This document shows positions 30-33,070 of a DNA stretch of 33,070 bases, piece after piece. The stretch is from an uncultured Clostridia bacterium. Lineage in GTDB: Bacteria > Bacillota > Clostridia > Lachnospirales > UBA5962. Position 1 is the stretch's first letter, and each line of letters opens with the position of its first letter. Made by a program: the position numbers and the translations under genes. The notes below the pieces were generated by a model that made no database searches, was not told the DNA's origin, and saw only the letters and a program-made list of their open reading frames with translations. The stretch is taken from assembly GCA_946481295.1 (NCBI GenBank), contig CAMLLW010000017.1, positions 1 to 33,070 on the forward strand, read 5' to 3'.

Positions 30-2795
30 TTAAATTTTATATAAAATATATTTAGTAAATATTAAATAATATATAGAATATAAAATTATTATATTATTAT
101 CCTGTAAATTTAATTTAAAAAAGTGTGATATAATTTTAATATCATTTATATTAAATTTTAAAATATCATCATACTCTTTTAACATAAAATCCTTATCTAA
201 ATTTAAAATATCATTTTCTATTAAAGCTAAAGCATAATTATATTCATGTCTAAAATTAAAATTGTCATTTATTGCATTAATTTTATACTTGTTTAAATCA
301 AAATCAAAAATTTCTAAATACTTATAACAATTTAAAAAAGTATCTACTGTATCTTTATAATTTGTATTTTGATAAGAATAAAATACTATATTGCCATCTT
401 TTTTAATTTCTACCCCAGATTCATAAATACCTAACTTTAATCTTATATTATTATAGATGTAATCATTGATAATTTTTTCTACTACTAATAATTTACCAGA
501 ATAAGTTAAACCACTTTTTTCAAAACTTGAACATACTGAAATATCATTTATCTTCTTTTGCTTATTAATAAAAATATTATTTTTTTCTCTTATAAATATG
601 TAATTTTCATTTTTATAATTTTTTTTAGGGAATAAATTATAAATTTTTTTGGCTACATTTAAAATACATTCTTGATTTTGTATATTACTAATTAAATAAA
701 CTGTTAAATTATTTTGTGTAAAAATACTTTCTTTTAATTTAATTATATTGTTTTTCAAATTAGTTTTATGTTCATTATAATTAATTAAAAAATCTTCTAA
801 CCATTTTATAAAATTAAAACCAAAAATTTTGTCTTTTTTAAGTGCACTATTAAAAAAATATATTTCTGAAATATTTTTGACTATTTTTTTACTATAATAA
901 AAACTATTAGTTGTAATTTTATTTTTAAAATTATTTAATATTTCATATATTTCTTTTGTACTATTAAAATTAAAAGCTAATAATATATTATTAAATACTT
1001 CAAAAATAAAATTTGTATCATTTTTTAAAACTTTAAATTTAATTTCAAAAAATAAATCTTTTTTATAGTAATTTACATCAAATTGTGCCGATTCTAAAAT
1101 ATAATTATATTTTTCATCCATTTTATTATTAATTTCTTTTACTAATATTATAAATACACCTAAATATGGTAAATACTTTTCTTCTAAATTATTAATATTA
1201 AAATAAAAATTCATATAATTAATATCTTTTATAGCTATATTTATATATTTAAAATTATGATTAAAGACATTGATTGTCTCTATTTTAGAATTGTAATTTT
1301 CTAGTAATTGACAACTATTAATATTAGAATCTTTTATCAAATCATTCATTGTCTTTTTATCGTCATGTTTTTGAAATTTTTGTAATGCTAAATTTTCTTT
1401 TTTTATTATTTTTTTATCTTTTTCATTTGGCATATAATTATTTGTTTCAATTTCTTTATCGTTTTTTATATACAAATAAACAACATTTTTATTATTTATA
1501 AATTTATCTTTTATAGTTTTTTCAAATATATCTAAATTTTTTTTAATAAAATTAAGGTATTTAAATTTTTCAAAACCTTTTAATAAATCATCTTCTAAAA
1601 TAAAATTGTTAACTATTTCTAAATTGTAGATAAGTCCTTCAGGTTTATATCCATAATTTTTTTCTTTAATATTTAACTCATAAAGTTTTATTGATTTTAA
1701 TAATAATTCTTTATCTAATCCTTCTTTTAAAATTAAATGCCAAAAATCTTTAAGTGTATTTACTAAATGATTTAACTCTATATTATTTTTATTATCTAAA
1801 TAAAAGAATAAAACAGGCTCTGAAATATCTTTATCAAATTCATAAAAAATATTTGTATTGAAATTTGATTTTAAAAATTTAATTAAAGGAGAATTATTAA
1901 ATTTAAATAGATAATTAATTAAAATTTCAACACATGAAATTTCTAGTTCATTATTTGCCTTACACATAATTAATCCAACACATAAACAACTATTACTAAA
2001 ATAGTAAGTTTCATTAATTAACTTAGAAAAATATTTATTTTCAGATTTTGATAAATTAAAAGAATTTTTAGAAATACTTTTACTATATTTATGTATATAA
2101 TTAATATATATATAATTAAGATAAAACTCTATATCTAAATCACCGTATAAATAAATTAAAGAGTTATCCATAGTATAATATTCATTATAATATTCTAATA
2201 AATCTTCAAATTTAAGAATTTTTATGTATTTAGGATCACCTGCAGAATCAAACTTAATATTTTTATTATAAAATAAATATTTATATAATTTACGTTTTAT
2301 AATATAAGCCTTATCAGAATACATTCCTAACATCTCATTATATACTATGCCATTTGGTTTTAATTTCAAATTTTTTAATTCATATCTAAATCCTTCTTGC
2401 CAAAAGATTTCTTTTCTACTATTTAAGTTAGAATTATAAATAGCATCTAAATATACATCCATCATATCGAAAAAATCTTCTTTATTATAAGATGAAAATG
2501 GATAAACTGTTTTTTCATTAAAAGTTATAGCATTTAAATAAGTGTACATTTTTTTTGTAGCTAATGCATTAAATGTGTCTTTTATTGGATATTTATTTGA
2601 ACCAGTTAGTAAACAATGTTCTAAAATATGTGGTATACCTTTGTCATTAAGTGGTGGTGTCTTAAGACTTATTGAAAATACATTATTTAAATTTTTATTT
2701 TTAATATAAACAACTTTTGTACCTTCACTACATTGATAAAAATATCCTGTACTATCTATTTCATTTAATTTTCTAGTATTTTTTAATTCAAACAT
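30..2795 (-). CDS. M16 family zinc metallopeptidase, PreP/insulinase-like
   Basis: Predicted zinc peptidase of the M16C (presequence protease) family, 921 aa; members degrade short peptides inside a closed two-half chamber. The N-terminal half carries the inverted zinc motif HILEH (about residues 56-60), followed by family-typical TVYPFSS and MDVYLDAIY segments. The distal zinc-ligand glutamate lies in GIVYNEMLG (about residue 153). The C-terminal half is poorly conserved and very rich in Asn, Lys and Ile. The last 20 or so residues (ending KYILYKI) are hydrophobic and do not look like a typical PreP end, so an unusual or slightly altered C-terminus is possible. There is no signal peptide, so the protein is probably cytoplasmic. 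The ATG at 2795 has only a weak upstream AGAAAG. The gene follows the terminator of the valS unit; its own promoter was not recognised. Confidence 0.88.
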   Translation of the reverse strand: MFELKNTRKLNEIDSTGYFYQCSEGTKVVYIKNKNLNNVFSISLKTPPLNDKGIPHILEHCLLTGSNKYPIKDTFNALATKKMYTYLNAITFNEKTVYPFSSYNKEDFFDMMDVYLDAIYNSNLNSRKEIFWQEGFRYELKNLKLKPNGIVYNEMLGMYSDKAYIIKRKLYKYLFYNKNIKFDSAGDPKYIKILKFEDLLEYYNEYYTMDNSLIYLYGDLDIEFYLNYIYINYIHKYSKSISKNSFNLSKSENKYFSKLINETYYFSNSCLCVGLIMCKANNELEISCVEILINYLFKFNNSPLIKFLKSNFNTNIFYEFDKDISEPVLFFYLDNKNNIELNHLVNTLKDFWHLILKEGLDKELLLKSIKLYELNIKEKNYGYKPEGLIYNLEIVNNFILEDDLLKGFEKFKYLNFIKKNLDIFEKTIKDKFINNKNVVYLYIKNDKEIETNNYMPNEKDKKIIKKENLALQKFQKHDDKKTMNDLIKDSNINSCQLLENYNSKIETINVFNHNFKYINIAIKDINYMNFYFNINNLEEKYLPYLGVFIILVKEINNKMDEKYNYILESAQFDVNYYKKDLFFEIKFKVLKNDTNFIFEVFNNILLAFNFNSTKEIYEILNNFKNKITTNSFYYSKKIVKNISEIYFFNSALKKDKIFGFNFIKWLEDFLINYNEHKTNLKNNIIKLKESIFTQNNLTVYLISNIQNQECILNVAKKIYNLFPKKNYKNENYIFIREKNNIFINKQKKINDISVCSSFEKSGLTYSGKLLVVEKIINDYIYNNIRLKLGIYESGVEIKKDGNIVFYSYQNTNYKDTVDTFLNCYKYLEIFDFDLNKYKINAINDNFNFRHEYNYALALIENDILNLDKDFMLKEYDDILKFNINDIKIISHFFKLNLQDNNIIILYSIYYLIFTKYILYKI

Positions 2796-2834
2796 ATAAT
2801 TTAACTTCTTTCTATTTTACAATTTTAAAAAAAA

Positions 2835-2860
2835 TAAAAAACTTCCTTAGAAGTTTTTTA
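2835..2860 (-). terminator. Rho-independent terminator of the valS unit
   Basis: On the minus strand the stem AAAAAACTTC / GAAGTTTTTT with a short TAAG loop is followed by an A/T tract ending in a run of T. It lies directly after the TPR gene stop codon and before the M16 peptidase gene, so it most likely ends the valS-46aa-TPR transcript. Confidence 0.8.
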
Positions 2861-2861
2861 T

Positions 2862-4271
2862 TTATGAAAGTTCTTGTATTTTTGAATTAGCAATTTTTAC
2901 TCTATTAGAATTTGGATATTTATCTAATATAGTTTGATAATATGTTAATGCTAATTCATTCTCTTGATTTATTTCTGCTATTCTTGCTAAATAATAAGTA
3001 GCATCTGCTAAATATGGACTATCACTTAAACTATAAATAAATGATTTCTCAAACATATTTTTTGCATCGGCATAGTTCTTTTGATTAAATAATTTTATTG
3101 CTTGGCTATATGTTTTTCTTCCAGCCTCTTTATATACTTTACTTTTTGCATTTTCATACTTTTCTTTTACTTCTGGAGATAAATTTTCAGAATCTACGCT
3201 GTTAAGCATATATGCAGCATCTTCTGATTTTCCTTTTTTATTTAAATCAAAAGCACTTTGTATAATTTCTGTTACCTCTATTTCACTTGTTTGCTTCTTT
3301 AATTCATTATTTTCAGAATGTATTTTAGAATTCTCACTTTGTAGAAAACCTACTTTTTCTTCTAATTCTAAAATATTTTTCTTATAAGTTTTTTCTGATT
3401 TTTTAATTGTATTTTGTAATTCTTCTATTTTCATTTCTTTTTCATTTATAATACCAGGATTAATTAATGTTTTCATTAAAACAAAAACACAAATACCACC
3501 TATAACAAAACTAATAATTTCAGCTATATGAAAATTATTTCCAAACTTCTTTTTATTATCTTCAGGAGTAAGTCTAGTATATGACCCACTCTGACTATAA
3601 GATGTTTTTGCTTCTACTTTATTTATTATAACAGGTGCAGGTGCATCAGGCCTTTGTTTATCAGGAAATAATTCTCTATAATAATGTAAAGCTGTTTGAT
3701 TATTATAATCTATATTTAATACTTTTATAATTAAATCTTCTGCTTCTTTCTTTTTATTTTGAATTAAATAACAAAATGTAAGTAAATTTAATGCGTCTAC
3801 AAATTTAGGATTTATTTCTATAGCTTTCTTTAACTGTATGACTGCCATATCATCATTTTTTTGTTCTATATAAATAAGTGCTTGATTATATATTTCTATA
3901 TAATTATTAAATTCTTCTATTTGTTTAGGTTCTTTTTTTAAATCATTTATATATACATTAGCTAAATTATCTTCCACTTTTATAATTCTACTTGTATTCC
4001 ATTGTTTTATTGCTTCTCCAACTTGCCCTACTTCAAAATATATAAGCCCAAGTAAGTTTCTAGCATTATAATTATTTTTATTAAAATAAATACTTTTATT
4101 TAAATACTCTATAGAATTATATAAATCATTAGAATTTACACTATTAATAGCTTTATTATATAAAGAATTGGAAGCTAAATTTGCTTTTTCAAATAATGTT
4201 GGATCTATACCACAATTTGGACAAATTGTTTCTTTGTTTGAAAATTCAATCCCACAATTTGGACATTTCAT
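2862..4271 (-). CDS. Zinc-ribbon, TPR and coiled-coil single-pass membrane protein
   Basis: Predicted 469-aa protein. A zinc ribbon with two CPNC knuckles (residues 3-20) is followed by TPR-like helical repeats to about residue 205. A Pro-rich linker follows, then one membrane span near 249-269 (ISFVIGGICVFVLM). After it come a coiled coil (about 280-335) and a second set of TPR-like repeats to the C-terminus, similar to those of YbgF/BamD-type proteins. The N-terminal zinc ribbon and TPRs would be cytoplasmic and the C-terminal half outside, suggesting an envelope scaffold; the function is not known. A GTG at 4280 lies inside the ribosome binding site. The ATG at 4271 is preferred because GAGGAG sits 8 nt before it. 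It starts 16 bp after the 46-aa ORF and is probably cotranscribed with valS. Confidence 0.8.
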   Translation of the reverse strand: MKCPNCGIEFSNKETICPNCGIDPTLFEKANLASNSLYNKAINSVNSNDLYNSIEYLNKSIYFNKNNYNARNLLGLIYFEVGQVGEAIKQWNTSRIIKVEDNLANVYINDLKKEPKQIEEFNNYIEIYNQALIYIEQKNDDMAVIQLKKAIEINPKFVDALNLLTFCYLIQNKKKEAEDLIIKVLNIDYNNQTALHYYRELFPDKQRPDAPAPVIINKVEAKTSYSQSGSYTRLTPEDNKKKFGNNFHIAEIISFVIGGICVFVLMKTLINPGIINEKEMKIEELQNTIKKSEKTYKKNILELEEKVGFLQSENSKIHSENNELKKQTSEIEVTEIIQSAFDLNKKGKSEDAAYMLNSVDSENLSPEVKEKYENAKSKVYKEAGRKTYSQAIKLFNQKNYADAKNMFEKSFIYSLSDSPYLADATYYLARIAEINQENELALTYYQTILDKYPNSNRVKIANSKIQELS

Positions 4272-20453: not shown

Positions 20454-20491
20454 AAAAAGTAGTCTTGCATATTATAGCAAGACTACTTTTT
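20454..20491 (-). terminator. Terminator of the nrdDG operon
   Basis: Perfect 15-bp stem AAAAAGTAGTCTTGC / GCAAGACTACTTTTT with an 8-nt loop, followed on the minus strand by a T-rich run. It starts at the stop codon of nrdG exon 2 (20490-20492). Confidence 0.88.
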
Positions 20492-20716
20492 ATAATTTAT
20501 AAAGTAATATTTTATTATGTTTTAAACTTTCTTCTACATCTATAATTCTTTGATTCGTAGATCCTCTAAATCTTAAAGTTTCATCTTTATTTTCTATCTC
20601 AAATTTTCCATCAACTAAAACATTTATATTATATAAAAGATCTCTTTTAGACTTACTTGAAGAATTAATTAATTCTTCAAAAGTATATCCTGTATAGCAC
20701 CATATGTTTATATTAT
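20490..20716 (-). CDS. nrdG: Anaerobic RNR activase NrdG, exon 2
   Basis: 3' exon of nrdG. Joined to exon 1 across the group II intron, codon 93 becomes AAT and the frame reads NNINIWCYTGYTFEEL, the conserved NrdG segment. It ends with the family-typical LRFRGSTNQRIIDVEESL and stops at TAA 20490-20492. The joined protein is 167 aa, a normal NrdG length. Without splicing, exon 2 would not be translated because the frame stops in the intron 10 codons after the exon border. This exon lacks its own start and ribosome binding site, so it should not be called as a separate gene. Confidence 0.9.
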
Positions 20717-21648
20717 ATAGCGATAGGTAAATCTTTGAAATTATCTACAATTTTTCCCCCGCTTCACACCGTACGTGAAGCTTTTACTTCATACGGCGTT
20801 CCATCAATTAATAATTATTTAATAATACAATATATAATAAAAATTATCATAAGTTTTTAAGCTATCTTCAAAGACAATAATTGATTTTAAAATTTATATT
20901 TTATATTGCTATATTTTTATATAAATTATATGTTGTAATAAATATAATTAAATTTTTTGTATCAATAATTAATTATTTAATTGACTAGTGGCTATCCCTC
21001 CACAGCTTATTATCACTGCTTCATAAGTACTGTGCCACCACTCTCACTAACATTAATATTAGTTATAGTTTAACTTTTCCTAATAAACGTTTCTTAACAT
21101 AGCAAGATGTTTATTCATAAACGTTGTTAGCTTTCAACGTTCCGATAATATTTTCTTTCTATATCCTTAGATCCTTTCTATATGCCTGTTTGCTTGATAC
21201 TGCCTTTAACAGTATAAGGACTTTCCTAAGAAAAAATTGTACTTATCCTCACATACTATACAATAAAGTATATAATAGCATTTCTACTAATAATTAATAT
21301 AGACATGTACATTCGAAAGTTCGTCAGTATTTACATTCTAATCATAGATATATTACGATTATTTTAAAATATTTATCTTTAAATAATCAATGACTCCCGG
21401 CCTATAAATCTCTTGACCACCTCTGATTCACATTTCCTCAGCTTTAACTGTTAGGGAGAAATCCTAGCCGTCTTTACCGAGCTTCATACATATATACCTT
21501 GCTATATATACGCATGTCGGAGTATTAGAGAGAACCCTTTAGAACGTTACTTCTTCATTTGATTCTAAATATTATCAGTTCTCATAAATAGCTTATTTCT
21601 ATTTATGGTCTATCCTTTATTTTATTTTAAGATAGAAACGTTTCACAC
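20717..21648 (-). mobile_element. Group II intron without an ORF, inserted in nrdG (932 nt)
   Basis: Read on the minus strand it starts GTGTGAAACG and ends CTATCGCTAT (3' AY end). A 34-nt domain V lies at 20766-20799. It pairs fully with a CGC triad, a matching C-G pair and an AAAA terminal loop; a GGGGGAAAA joiner and a domain VI follow. EBS1 TTTTCT (21229-21234) pairs 6 of 6 with the last six exon bases AGAAAA, and EBS2 TTAATT (21292-21297) pairs 6 of 6 with the preceding AATTAA. Domain IV (about 20800-20980) is about 140 nt longer than in the nrdD intron, A/T-rich, closed by an inverted repeat (TCAATTAA / TTAATTGA), and has no maturase sequence. Excision restores nrdG exactly. It resembles bacterial class B / IIB introns; the class is my judgement. 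Confidence 0.93.
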
Positions 21649-21925
21649 TTTTCTTTAATTCATATGCCATATATGCAAAACTTTCACTCTGAAAAAATGG
21701 ATCTCCTCCAGAAAAAGTTACACCTTTTAACATTGGATTTTCTAAAACATCTTTTACAAGATCATCTACATCAAATACTTTACCAGAATTCATATCATGA
21801 CTTTCTGGGCTAAAACAGCCTTTACAATTATGTTTACAGCCTTGTGCAAAAAAAACTCTTCTAAGTCCAACACCATTTACTAAACTTTCTGGTAACATAC
21901 CATATAAATTCACAAATTTTTTCAT
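21649..21925 (-). CDS. nrdG: Anaerobic RNR activase NrdG (radical SAM), exon 1
   Basis: 5' exon coding residues 1-92 plus one base of codon 93. It holds the radical-SAM iron-sulfur motif CKHNCKGC (CX3CX2C, residues 30-37) and the SAM-binding VTFSGGDPFFQ. NrdG uses SAM to create the glycyl radical on NrdD. The ATG at 21925 is one base after the nrdD stop codon, with an AAGGAT-like site inside the end of nrdD, so the two genes are translationally linked. The reading frame runs ten codons into the intron and stops at 21617. That 102-aa product would lack the conserved C-terminal third, so splicing is needed for a full protein. Confidence 0.93.
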
Positions 21926-21926
21926 A

Positions 21927-23692
21927 TTAAAGATCCTTATATACGTTTTTTCCTGTAATATGAGATAATCTATCTCTTCTTTCAGCTACTTTTCCTTCAC
22001 CAAAACGTTCATCTAAAGATAAGTATCCTGTTACTCTAGATATACCTTGAATATTTGAACTATTACATTTTGGACATACATTTTCACCATGTAAATATGT
22101 ACCACAATCTTTGCAATATCTTATATGAAAATTTATACCAACATAACTTATATTAGTATTAGAATAAGCATAGTCTAAAATATTAAATACTACATCTTCA
22201 TCAGGATAATCATCAAGTTCTATATAACTTATATGTCCACCGTTACAAATTTCATGATATGGAGCTTCTATATTTATTTTTTCTTTTATAGAAATATTAC
22301 ATCCAACAGGTACATGATAAGAATTTGTATAGTAATCTTTATCTGTTACTCCTTTTATTTCTCCAAAAACTAATTTATCTTTTATAGTAAATTTATTACT
22401 AAGACCTTCTGCAGGTGTAGCATAACAACTCCAATTTAAACTAGTTTCCTTTGTAAGTTTATCAGTGTAATCTCTTATTCTTTTTACAATTTTTAAACCT
22501 AATTCTCTAGCTTCTTCACTTTCACCATGATGTTTTCCTATTAAACCTACTAAAGTTTCAGCTAACCCTATAAATCCAATTGCCCATGTACCTTGTTTTA
22601 AAATAGGCTCTATACTGTCATTTGCATCTAAATTTTCAGAACCTTTTAAAAGTTTTTCTCCACCAACAAATGGTAAATCTTTAATCTTTAGATTTTTTAA
22701 TGTATCATATCTATGCATTAAAGATTTTCTAGCTAAATCTAAATTTTCATCTAATAATTCAAAAAATTTATCTATATTTTTTTTCGCTCTTAAAGATATA
22801 CGTGGTAAATTTATTGTTACAGGTGCTATATTTCCACGCCCTGTAGGTTCAGATTTTCCATTTACATTAGAAGCAACATAAGTTCTACATCCCATTGTAG
22901 ATGGTATAATACCTTGATCATATATTTTTTTATTGAAACTTGAATCTATATTCATAAATGTAGGATTCATTCTTTTAGAGGCTACTCGACAAGCTAATCT
23001 AAATAAATAATAATACTTATCTTCTTTATTTCTATTTACCCCTTCTTTAACTCTAAATATTATATTAGGGAATATAGGTTGTTCAGAATTACCTAAACCT
23101 TTTTCGTATTCTAATAAAAATACTTCACATATTAAACTAGCATCTTCGTTTTCAGGTATTCCAATATTTATGGAACTAAATGGTACTTGTGATCCTGCTC
23201 TAGAATGCATAGTATTTAAATTATATATTATACCTTGCATAGATTGGTGAAGAACTTTTAATAATTTCTTTTCAGCAAATTCTTTAGCATTTTCTTCTGG
23301 TATTCCTAAATCTAAGTATTCTTTTATAATTTCTTGTCTAGTTCTATCTACATATATAGATAAATCATTATCAAAATTTGGATGAGATTGTCCTCCAAAC
23401 ATATCATTTTGAGTAGATTGTAATAATATACATGATAGTTCTGCTGCAGACTCTATTCTTTTTGGTGGTCTTATATAACCATACCCTGTATTAAATCCTC
23501 TTTCTAAAACTTGTCTAGTTGGAATATGTAAACAATTTATACTTAAATTATATGAATCTAAATCATGATAATATAAATCTCCATTTTCATGTGCCTTAGA
23601 TAAGTTTTTAGGCATATTGGCTAAATTGTGCCATTTATTAGATTCACTAGCTATTCTTAATAATTTTGCACTATAATTATTTCCTACATTAG
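21927..23692 (-). CDS. nrdD: Anaerobic ribonucleoside-triphosphate reductase NrdD, exon 2 (catalytic and glycyl-radical domains)
   Basis: 3' exon of class III RNR, which reduces NTPs to dNTPs without oxygen. Joined to exon 1 it restores a GCT alanine codon and reads on as NVGNNYSAKLLRIASESNKW, conserved NrdD sequence found upstream of the first in-frame ATG (23615). Seen in this exon are NCLHIPTRQV with an active-site Cys candidate, the LNTMHSRAGSQVPFSSINIG block, a C-terminal zinc site (CKDCGTYLHGENVCPKC) and the glycyl-radical loop RVTGYLSLDERF. The full joined protein is 702 aa, a normal length. A start at the internal ATG 23615 would omit conserved residues and has no clear ribosome binding site. 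Confidence 0.95.
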
Positions 23693-24485
23693 ATAGCGAT
23701 AGGTAAGTATTTGAAATAATCTCTAACTTTTCCCCCGCTCCAAACCGTACATGAAACTTTCACCTCATACGGCTTTCCACCAAATTTAAATTTGGCTAGT
23801 GGCTATCCCTCCACAGTTTATTATCACTGTTTCATAAGTACTGTGCCACCGCTCTCACTGACATTAATGTAAGTTATAGATTTCTTTTCCTTACAAACGT
23901 TTTATACATAACAAGATGCTTATTAATTTTACGTTGCCAGCTTTCAACGTTCCAATAATATCCTCATTCTATATCCTTAGGTTCTTTCTCTGTGCCTGTT
24001 TGCTTGATACTACCAATTATAGTATAAGGATTTTCCTAATAATGATTTGTACTAATCCTCACAAACTAATATAAAATTTAGCATTTCTACTAATATAGAG
24101 TTTAGACACGTACATTCAAAAGTTCGTCAGTATTTAAAATACATTCTAACCATAGATATATTATGTTATTATATTTATTATTTCTACCTAAAATTATATT
24201 TTAAACAGAAATAATAAATATAAAACAATGACCCCCAGTCCATATACTTCTCGATTATCTCTAATTCGCATTTCCTCAGCATTATCTGTTAGGGAAGTAA
24301 CAAAACTGACTTTACCGAGCTTCATACATATATACCTTGTTATATATATGCATGTCGGAGTATTAGGGAGAACCTTTCAGGACGTTACTCCATCATTCGA
24401 TTCTAGATATTATTAGTTCTAGTAAATTTATATTTACTGTCTACTCTTTTTAATATTTAAACATTAAAGTAGAAACGTTTCGCAC
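23693..24485 (-). mobile_element. Group II intron without an ORF, inserted in nrdD (793 nt)
   Basis: Read on the minus strand it starts GTGCGAAACG and ends CTATCGCTAT. Domain V is 34 nt (23742-23775) with AGC triad, paired lower stem and GAAA loop; the GGGGGAAAAG joiner and domain VI follow. EBS1 CATTAT (24039-24044) pairs 6 of 6 with the last exon bases ATAATG, and EBS2 CTCTAT (24095-24100) pairs 6 of 6 with the preceding ATAGAG. Domain IV is reduced to a short A/T stem (AAATTTAAATTT region), so there is no room for a maturase. Many blocks match the nrdG intron (for example GGAGGGATAGCCACTAG and AATACTCCGACATGC). Excision restores nrdD in frame. It is probably class B / IIB. Confidence 0.95.
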
Positions 24486-24828
24486 CATTATCTCTATCAG
24501 TCTCTATTCCTATTTTATTAATTGCCTTCATTAAATCTGATTTTATTTCTCTTACTCTATTTCTTTCATTTCTATAATTAGAATAACTTTTACCAATTTT
24601 TATATAGTCGTTTTTCATTAAAACTTCTTCTACTATATTTTGAATTTCTTCTACTTCTATTTCTAAAATATTTCTAGAATTAATTTTTTCTATAACATCA
24701 TTAGTTAAATTAGAAAGTTCAGTTTCATTTAACTCTGAGTCTAAATCTAAAGATGATTTTCTAATAGCATTAGTTATTTTTATAGAATTAAAATCAACTT
24801 TTCTTCCGTCTCTTTTTATAACATACAT
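24486..24828 (-). CDS. nrdD: Anaerobic RNR NrdD, exon 1 (ATP-cone)
   Basis: 5' exon coding residues 1-114 plus the first base of codon 115. It contains an ATP-cone allosteric domain (MYVIKRDGRKVDFNSIKITN onward, about residues 1-90), which senses dATP/ATP. It ends in IGIETDRDN, the segment that in NrdD homologues runs directly into ANVGNN. The ATG at 24828 is used because AGGAGTG lies just upstream; the ATG at 24861 overlaps the predicted -10 box. Unspliced, translation would run nine codons into the intron and stop at 24457. Confidence 0.94.
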
Positions 24829-32860: not shown

Positions 32861-33070
32861 ATGAAAAAATTCGTTTGTTCAGTATGTGGTCACGTATTTG
32901 AAGGAGAAAAAGCTCCAGATAAATGCCCAATTTGTGGAGCAGAAGGTTGCAAAATAATAGAACAAAAAGATGGTGAAGAAGTTAAATCTTGTCACAAATC
33001 TGCTTGTCATAAAGATGAAAAACCTTCTTGCCATAAAGAAGAAAAACCTTCTTGTCATAAAGAAGAAAAA
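32861..33070 (+). CDS. Rubredoxin-like domain protein with Cys-His repeat tail (partial)
   Basis: 70 codons are visible; the gene runs off the right edge. Residues 1-37 form a rubredoxin-like/zinc-ribbon domain of the rubrerythrin C-terminal type: MKKFVCSVCGHVFEGEKAPD, then KCPICGAEGCK, with four metal-ligand cysteines (6, 9, 25, 28) for iron or zinc. From about residue 46 a low-complexity tail begins: SCHKSACHKDEK followed by at least two copies of PSCHKEEK. The CHK units could bind metal or be redox-active, which is not established. The ATG has AAGGAGG 8 nt upstream. The gene may be a rubredoxin-like electron carrier for oxidative-stress defence in an anaerobe, or the start of a longer protein. 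Confidence 0.82.
   Translation, partial: MKKFVCSVCGHVFEGEKAPDKCPICGAEGCKIIEQKDGEEVKSCHKSACHKDEKPSCHKEEKPSCHKEEK
33023..33070 (+). repeat. 24-bp tandem repeat coding PSCHKEEK
   Basis: Two direct copies of a 24-bp unit (33023-33046 and 33047-33070) differ by one base (ttgCcat versus ttgTcat). A shorter, degenerate unit precedes them. The array continues to the window edge, so the total copy number is unknown. It keeps frame and adds eight residues with one Cys and one His each time. Confidence 0.85.

Follow-up and report, generated by a model that had tools for sequence, protein, structure and literature searches.

Group II introns in both genes of an nrdDG operon and their relatives across a clostridial genome

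Two introns within one nrdDG operon

The 33,070-nucleotide (nt) stretch analyzed here, referred to as the window, is contig C17 in the genome of an uncultured Clostridia bacterium. On its minus strand lie nrdD (24828-21927) and nrdG (21925-20490), which encode an anaerobic, class III ribonucleotide reductase (RNR) and which hold one insertion each. An earlier note on this DNA, made from the letters alone, had read both insertions as group II introns and had proposed a covariance search for domain V. A search of the window with all Rfam families, at curated thresholds, returned only two families, namely, RF02004 (group II domains 1-4) and RF00029 (domains 5-6), twice each and always inside the insertions. 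RF02004 was matched at full length at 24421-24224 (145 bits) and 21583-21386 (139.4 bits), and RF00029, above its gathering score in both cases, at 23777-23693 with 65.5 bits and at 20801-20717 with 55.2 bits; each of the four matches lies on the minus strand. The RF00029 matches stop exactly at the proposed 3' splice sites of the two introns.

The 5' exon of nrdD (24486-24828), which encodes an ATP-cone domain (PF03477, residues 1-90 of the spliced product), stops one base into codon 115. The intron that follows (23693-24485, 793 nt) begins with GUGCG at 24485, and its longest stop-free stretch is 74 codons. Its exon-binding site 1 (EBS1), CAUUAU at 24039-24044, is predicted to pair at six of six positions with intron-binding site 1 (IBS1), AUAAUG at 24491-24486, and its EBS3, the G at 23990, with C23692, the first base of the 3' exon. 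Domains 5 and 6 close the intron (23693-23777); 8 nt from its 3' end they carry a bulged A that falls in an unpaired alignment column (1044) between two paired ones (1043 and 1045). The 3' exon (21927-23692) encodes the catalytic domain (PF13597, 602.9 bits), including the Cys4 site and the glycyl-radical motif RVTGY. In nrdG, the 5' exon (21649-21925) encodes the radical-SAM motif CxxxCxxC and is followed by an intron of 932 nt (20717-21648) that begins with GUGUG at 21648 and has no stop-free stretch longer than 58 codons. The predicted pairings here are six of six positions between EBS1 (UUUUCU, 21229-21234) and IBS1 (AGAAAA, 21654-21649), and between EBS3 (the U at 21180) and A20716, the first base of the 3' exon (20490-20716); domains 5 and 6 span 20717-20801. 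All these features lie on the minus strand, and both introns end in AU. Both thus combine a domain 5/6 core with a bulged A, a domain 1-4 scaffold and GUGYG/AY ends. The earlier limits are exact to the base, and the reading of two structurally complete group II introns with fitting splice sites, one in each gene of a single operon, is upheld.

Removal of 24485-23693 and 21648-20717 leaves open frames of 702 amino acids (aa) for NrdD and 167 aa for NrdG, free of stops, as had been claimed. Both insertions follow the first base of a codon and every unspliced frame is closed, so that translation through them is impossible; the conserved strings quoted around the junctions of the two proteins were also correct. 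Four fragments had been expected from standard gene callers, but with start codons only three of at least 60 aa are obtained, the nrdG 3' exon yielding no open reading frame (ORF) of that length. The spliced NrdD matches NF005497 with 1049.5 bits (cut-off 764) and TIGR02487 with 653 bits, the Pfam NRDD domain spanning residues 113-692, and the spliced NrdG matches TIGR02491 with 159.3 bits (cut-off 126.1). Hence, after splicing, both components of a class III RNR are full length and score at the level of their families.

For comparison we used 80 named clostridial NrdD genes from the GTDB collection, all of them continuous, and 38 clostridial NrdG genes. All homologues aligned across the site (80/80 and 38/38) are ungapped within 8 aa of the junction, which implies that these relatives are intron-free there and that splicing would restore exactly the expected codon. 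Identity of the nrdD gene to Clostridium homologues rises to 75%, whereas in the catalytic part it is only 46-49% to homologues from two genera of its own family (genomes G001 and G003). A possible order of events is therefore that the nrdDG operon was acquired first and the introns inserted later. Introns at the same nrdD site in those two family members were ruled out, since their homologues run unbroken through it. A genome search found a single nrdD in the assembly; a second intact nrdDG copy, which had been set beforehand as grounds for refutation, was not found.

A family of ten introns in ordinary genes

The genome (1,524,470 bases in 59 contigs, 93.5% complete) was then searched family by family, giving 11 matches to RF00029 and 10 to RF02004. 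These correspond to ten introns of about 740-932 nt, all within protein-coding genes and, as read at each site, all in phase 1. The earlier remark that two such introns are unusual therefore understated the case, although both are indeed present. Their hosts are nrdD, nrdG, obgE (two introns), a Toprim/DnaB-type primase-helicase gene (two introns), rlmB, spoVB, comF and a dihydroorotase-like (pyrC-like) gene. The 5' ends are GUGCG or GUGUG in all ten and the 3' ends are AU. None of them encodes a protein, the longest stop-free stretches being 49-79 codons, and none carries the domain-4 reverse transcriptase/maturase of a mobile group II intron. A count of eleven introns was rejected, since the eleventh RF00029 match lies on another contig and is most plausibly where the second helicase intron ends; joined across the two contigs, the exons would give an intact DnaB-type end.

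The obgE gene (contig C10, minus strand, 9595 to about 6690) is interrupted at 8826-7999 and 7728-6915 by two introns that are 88% identical to each other and are separated by an exon of 270 nt. Skipping of this exon is conceivable, and the differences in EBS1 between the two introns would have to prevent it. Equivalog matches are obtained for the spliced products of obgE (582.5 bits, cut-off 406) and rlmB (256.7 bits, cut-off 160). SpoVB falls narrowly below its cut-off, ComF matches the ComF family below the cut-off, and the contig that holds the pyrC-like gene ends before the gene does. Active dihydroorotases carry a metal site of the GLIDxHxHxREPG type. The dihydroorotase-like host (contig C19, 6991-8830) has GLIDTNCRICEPG at this position, and is perhaps an altered paralogue or one without activity.

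Identity among the ten introns is 71-90%, and they fall into a single clade (support 100/99) with respect to the best matches among 392 genomes of the order. Their exon flanks share a motif, namely, G at -19 in 8/10, T at -16 in 8/10 and T at -14 in 9/10, while the stretch paired with EBS1 varies from site to site. A fixed distal motif around a changeable EBS1 match is the footprint expected of retrohoming, where a protein reads the distal bases and the RNA the rest, and for this reason a maturase probably once drove the spread of the family in trans. The motif also accounts for most of the phase bias, since, in the coding sequences of this genome, 66-74% of the positions that have G-19 and T-14 are phase-1 positions; phase-1 insertion in 10/10 introns was accordingly rejected as a sign of selection for split translation. 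As side observations, reading into the introns in phase 1 yields a recurrent short tail in all ten (AKRSYLSA followed by a stop, and variants), and at their 3' ends most introns have a frame that continues into the following exon, in some cases with a TTG or GTG start preceded by a G-rich stretch; loci L018 (7794-7827) and L019 (7579-7612) are examples.

Searches with RVT_1 and TIGR04416 gave no reverse transcriptase (RT) or maturase match in this assembly at E <= 10, while the same RVT_1 search found RTs in 12 of 16 relatives, which served as a positive control. Because every RF00029 and RF02004 match is assigned to one of the ten introns, a protein-coding intron is not hidden at the contig ends. 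Among relatives, G052 (98% complete) has one ORF-less group II intron, in nrdD at another site, and no RT was found in it; G090 has 16 domain-5 matches and three RT matches. Relative G005 shows about 20 very similar domain 5/6 matches, many at contig ends, which appear to represent a different, recently multiplied group II intron in the same family of bacteria. Related introns in G043, G123, G163, G139 and G090 interrupt other ordinary genes, some with an intron-encoded protein (IEP) and some without; judged by eye from translations, the hosts include a PcrA/UvrD-like helicase gene, a GyrB/ParE-like gene and a sensor-kinase-like gene. Apart from the introns, the window holds at 32861-33070 a rubredoxin-like protein followed by an in-frame KPSCHKEE repeat that runs off its edge.

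Probable maintenance of splicing ability and its alternatives

A single aligned hexamer, EBS1, pairs in all ten introns with the six exon bases that precede their own 5' splice sites, and a single alignment column, EBS3 (G, U or A), can pair in 10/10 with the base that opens the 3' exon. Although the paired sequences differ among the ten introns, 59 of 60 EBS1-IBS1 positions are paired, compared with a mean of 29 when partners are shuffled, and none of 200,000 shuffles was as good. As predicted from these alignments, EBS1-IBS1 and EBS3-IBS3 are the splice-site pairings of group IIB. For EBS2-IBS2 no covarying stretch was found for exon positions -14 to -6, a search that a pairing to fixed sequence would escape. 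The consensus fold obtained from the nine complete introns comprises 209 pairs. Double compensatory changes, one or more per pair, occur in 53 of these, for instance in one at the base of domain 5 that is C-G in eight introns and A-U in that of nrdD. This fold leaves the A located 8 nt from the 3' end bulged between flanking pairs. Since dead insertions would be unlikely to keep fitting EBS1 and EBS3 together with compensatory changes, the sequences argue that splicing ability is maintained in the family.

Based on these results, we propose, with a probability of roughly 0.87, that the nrdD and nrdG insertions are complete group II ribozymes of an ORF-less family of about ten members, which would excise themselves and restore NrdD and NrdG. 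Both introns would cut themselves from the nrdDG transcript with joining of the exons. The related copies would descend from one retroelement, spread by retrohoming with an RT/maturase acting in trans, and persist now as introns that only splice, helped by a maturase missing from the assembly, by host factors or by nothing. Some observations weigh against this proposal. The second helicase intron spans two contigs whose overlapping tails differ at one base, the comF intron carries one EBS1 mismatch, and an assembly of 59 contigs that is 93.5% complete could lack a gene for a maturase, either by itself or together with a plasmid that bears it. The earlier note had argued that an anaerobe needs both proteins, but an intron-free class I RNR is also encoded on contig C28 (minus strand; nrdA 1453-3990, 845 aa; nrdB 382-1425, 347 aa), which weakens the essentiality argument. 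Class I RNRs are normally oxygen-dependent. With nrdA and nrdB present, the nrdDG operon is therefore probably needed only without oxygen, and the stronger argument for dependence is obgE with its two introns: ObgE is essential in both Bacillus subtilis and Escherichia coli, so that its interruption by two members of the same family implies that the family must splice in this bacterium.

The same class I RNR lends some credit to the idea that nrdD and nrdG are pseudogenes broken by dead intron copies, with dNTPs (deoxynucleoside triphosphates) supplied by nrdA and nrdB, since loss of nrdDG would be tolerable where some oxygen is available. We consider this very improbable, given exons free of frameshifts and stops, equivalog scores of NrdD and NrdG well above their cut-offs, matched EBS1 and EBS3, a structure kept by compensatory change, and the two introns of the same family in ObgE, a protein essential in model bacteria. 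Even less credible is that the genes remain unspliced and yield two-part proteins, in which the upstream part would be extended by a few intron-encoded residues and translation of the downstream exon would restart at a TTG or GTG in domain 6. This would suit ten phase-1 insertions whose read-in stops after 8-16 codons, and the final 9-37 intron codons, through which the frame continues into the 3' exon and which in several introns include an in-frame start. Yet neither the nrdD nor the nrdG intron contains an in-frame start ahead of its 3' exon, the phase bias stems mostly from the target motif, a split NrdG or ObgE G domain would hardly be tolerable, and EBS/IBS pairing would be lost if splicing were irrelevant.

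Within the self-splicing proposal itself, the chances are about even that one or more full maturase-encoding introns, lying in an assembly gap or on a plasmid, splice and move the copies in trans. Such an arrangement is the rule for bacterial ORF-less introns, as in Thermosynechococcus (PMC4424553, PMC2882425); the target motif shared by ten copies implies a past driver protein, about 6.5% of the genome is missing, and intron-rich relatives of the order carry few RT genes, G090 being an example. Against it, this genome shows neither an RT of any kind nor an orphan intron half at its contig ends, and G052, although nearly complete, likewise combines an ORF-less nrdD intron with no RT. Somewhat short of even odds, and so put forward tentatively, is that the bacterium resembles an organelle, with about ten splicing-only introns in conserved genes, two of them in obgE, no RT or maturase in the genome, and growth that would rely on splicing that is unaided or aided by host proteins.

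Known introns and meaning of the finding

In bacteria, ORF-less group II introns have been described as rare and nearly always accompanied by a related IEP, with C.te.I1 of Clostridium tetani as the sole known exception (PMC4424553), although a later survey found 281 of 2,381 introns in representative genomes without an IEP, such that they are less rare than once thought (PMC8919778). Most bacterial group II introns lie outside housekeeping genes (PMC4424553, PMC6003770), and their number per genome rarely exceeds ten (PMC8919778). C.te.I1 is ORF-less like the present family, and its genome lacks an IEP, just as none was found here (PMC4424553, PMC3919590); however, it is confined to a single locus, where domain 5/6 motifs are repeated and surface-layer genes are alternatively spliced, whereas here ten separate introns lie in ordinary genes, each with its own EBS1. 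The TeI3/TeI4 introns of Thermosynechococcus elongatus likewise comprise many ORF-less copies derived from one retroelement, with EBSs diversified toward new sites (PMC2882425), but that organism keeps several functional maturase genes and has few introns in genes, in contrast with this genome, where ten were found, each inside a gene, and no gene for a maturase. The group II introns of plant and Euglena organelles are similarly ORF-less, splicing-only and located in housekeeping genes (PMC4424553). Such an arrangement is well known from chloroplasts, yet among bacteria it is very rare. Their splicing relies on nucleus-encoded factors, whereas the present introns reside in a free bacterial genome and have well-conserved rather than degenerate RNA structures. 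Class B group II introns are common in Clostridium (PMC3919590), and placement in class B of this family, which has no cognate protein here, is no more than a lead.

Self-splicing introns are well known from RNR genes, and the separate group II intron at another nrdD site in G052 is a similar case. In the literature searched, we found no report of an operon in which group II introns split nrdD as well as nrdG, and nothing relevant on group II introns in nrdD or on ORF-less ones in Lachnospiraceae. The kind of element is already known, while the state of the genome looks new.

For annotation, gene callers will break obgE, nrdD, nrdG, rlmB and other genes here, and genes inferred to be missing from such genomes will be wrongly so. 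For intron biology, ten ORF-less introns in the ordinary genes of a small clostridial genome, several of them paired in one transcript and with no maturase found, would be, if true, a bacterial counterpart of the organellar state presumed to have come before the spliceosome. The genome provides a test of whether essential bacterial genes can keep group II introns without a protein of their own. It also provides a test of how a cell avoids the re-attack on its own mRNA reported for Ll.LtrB, which has been proposed to explain the avoidance of essential genes (PMC6003770).

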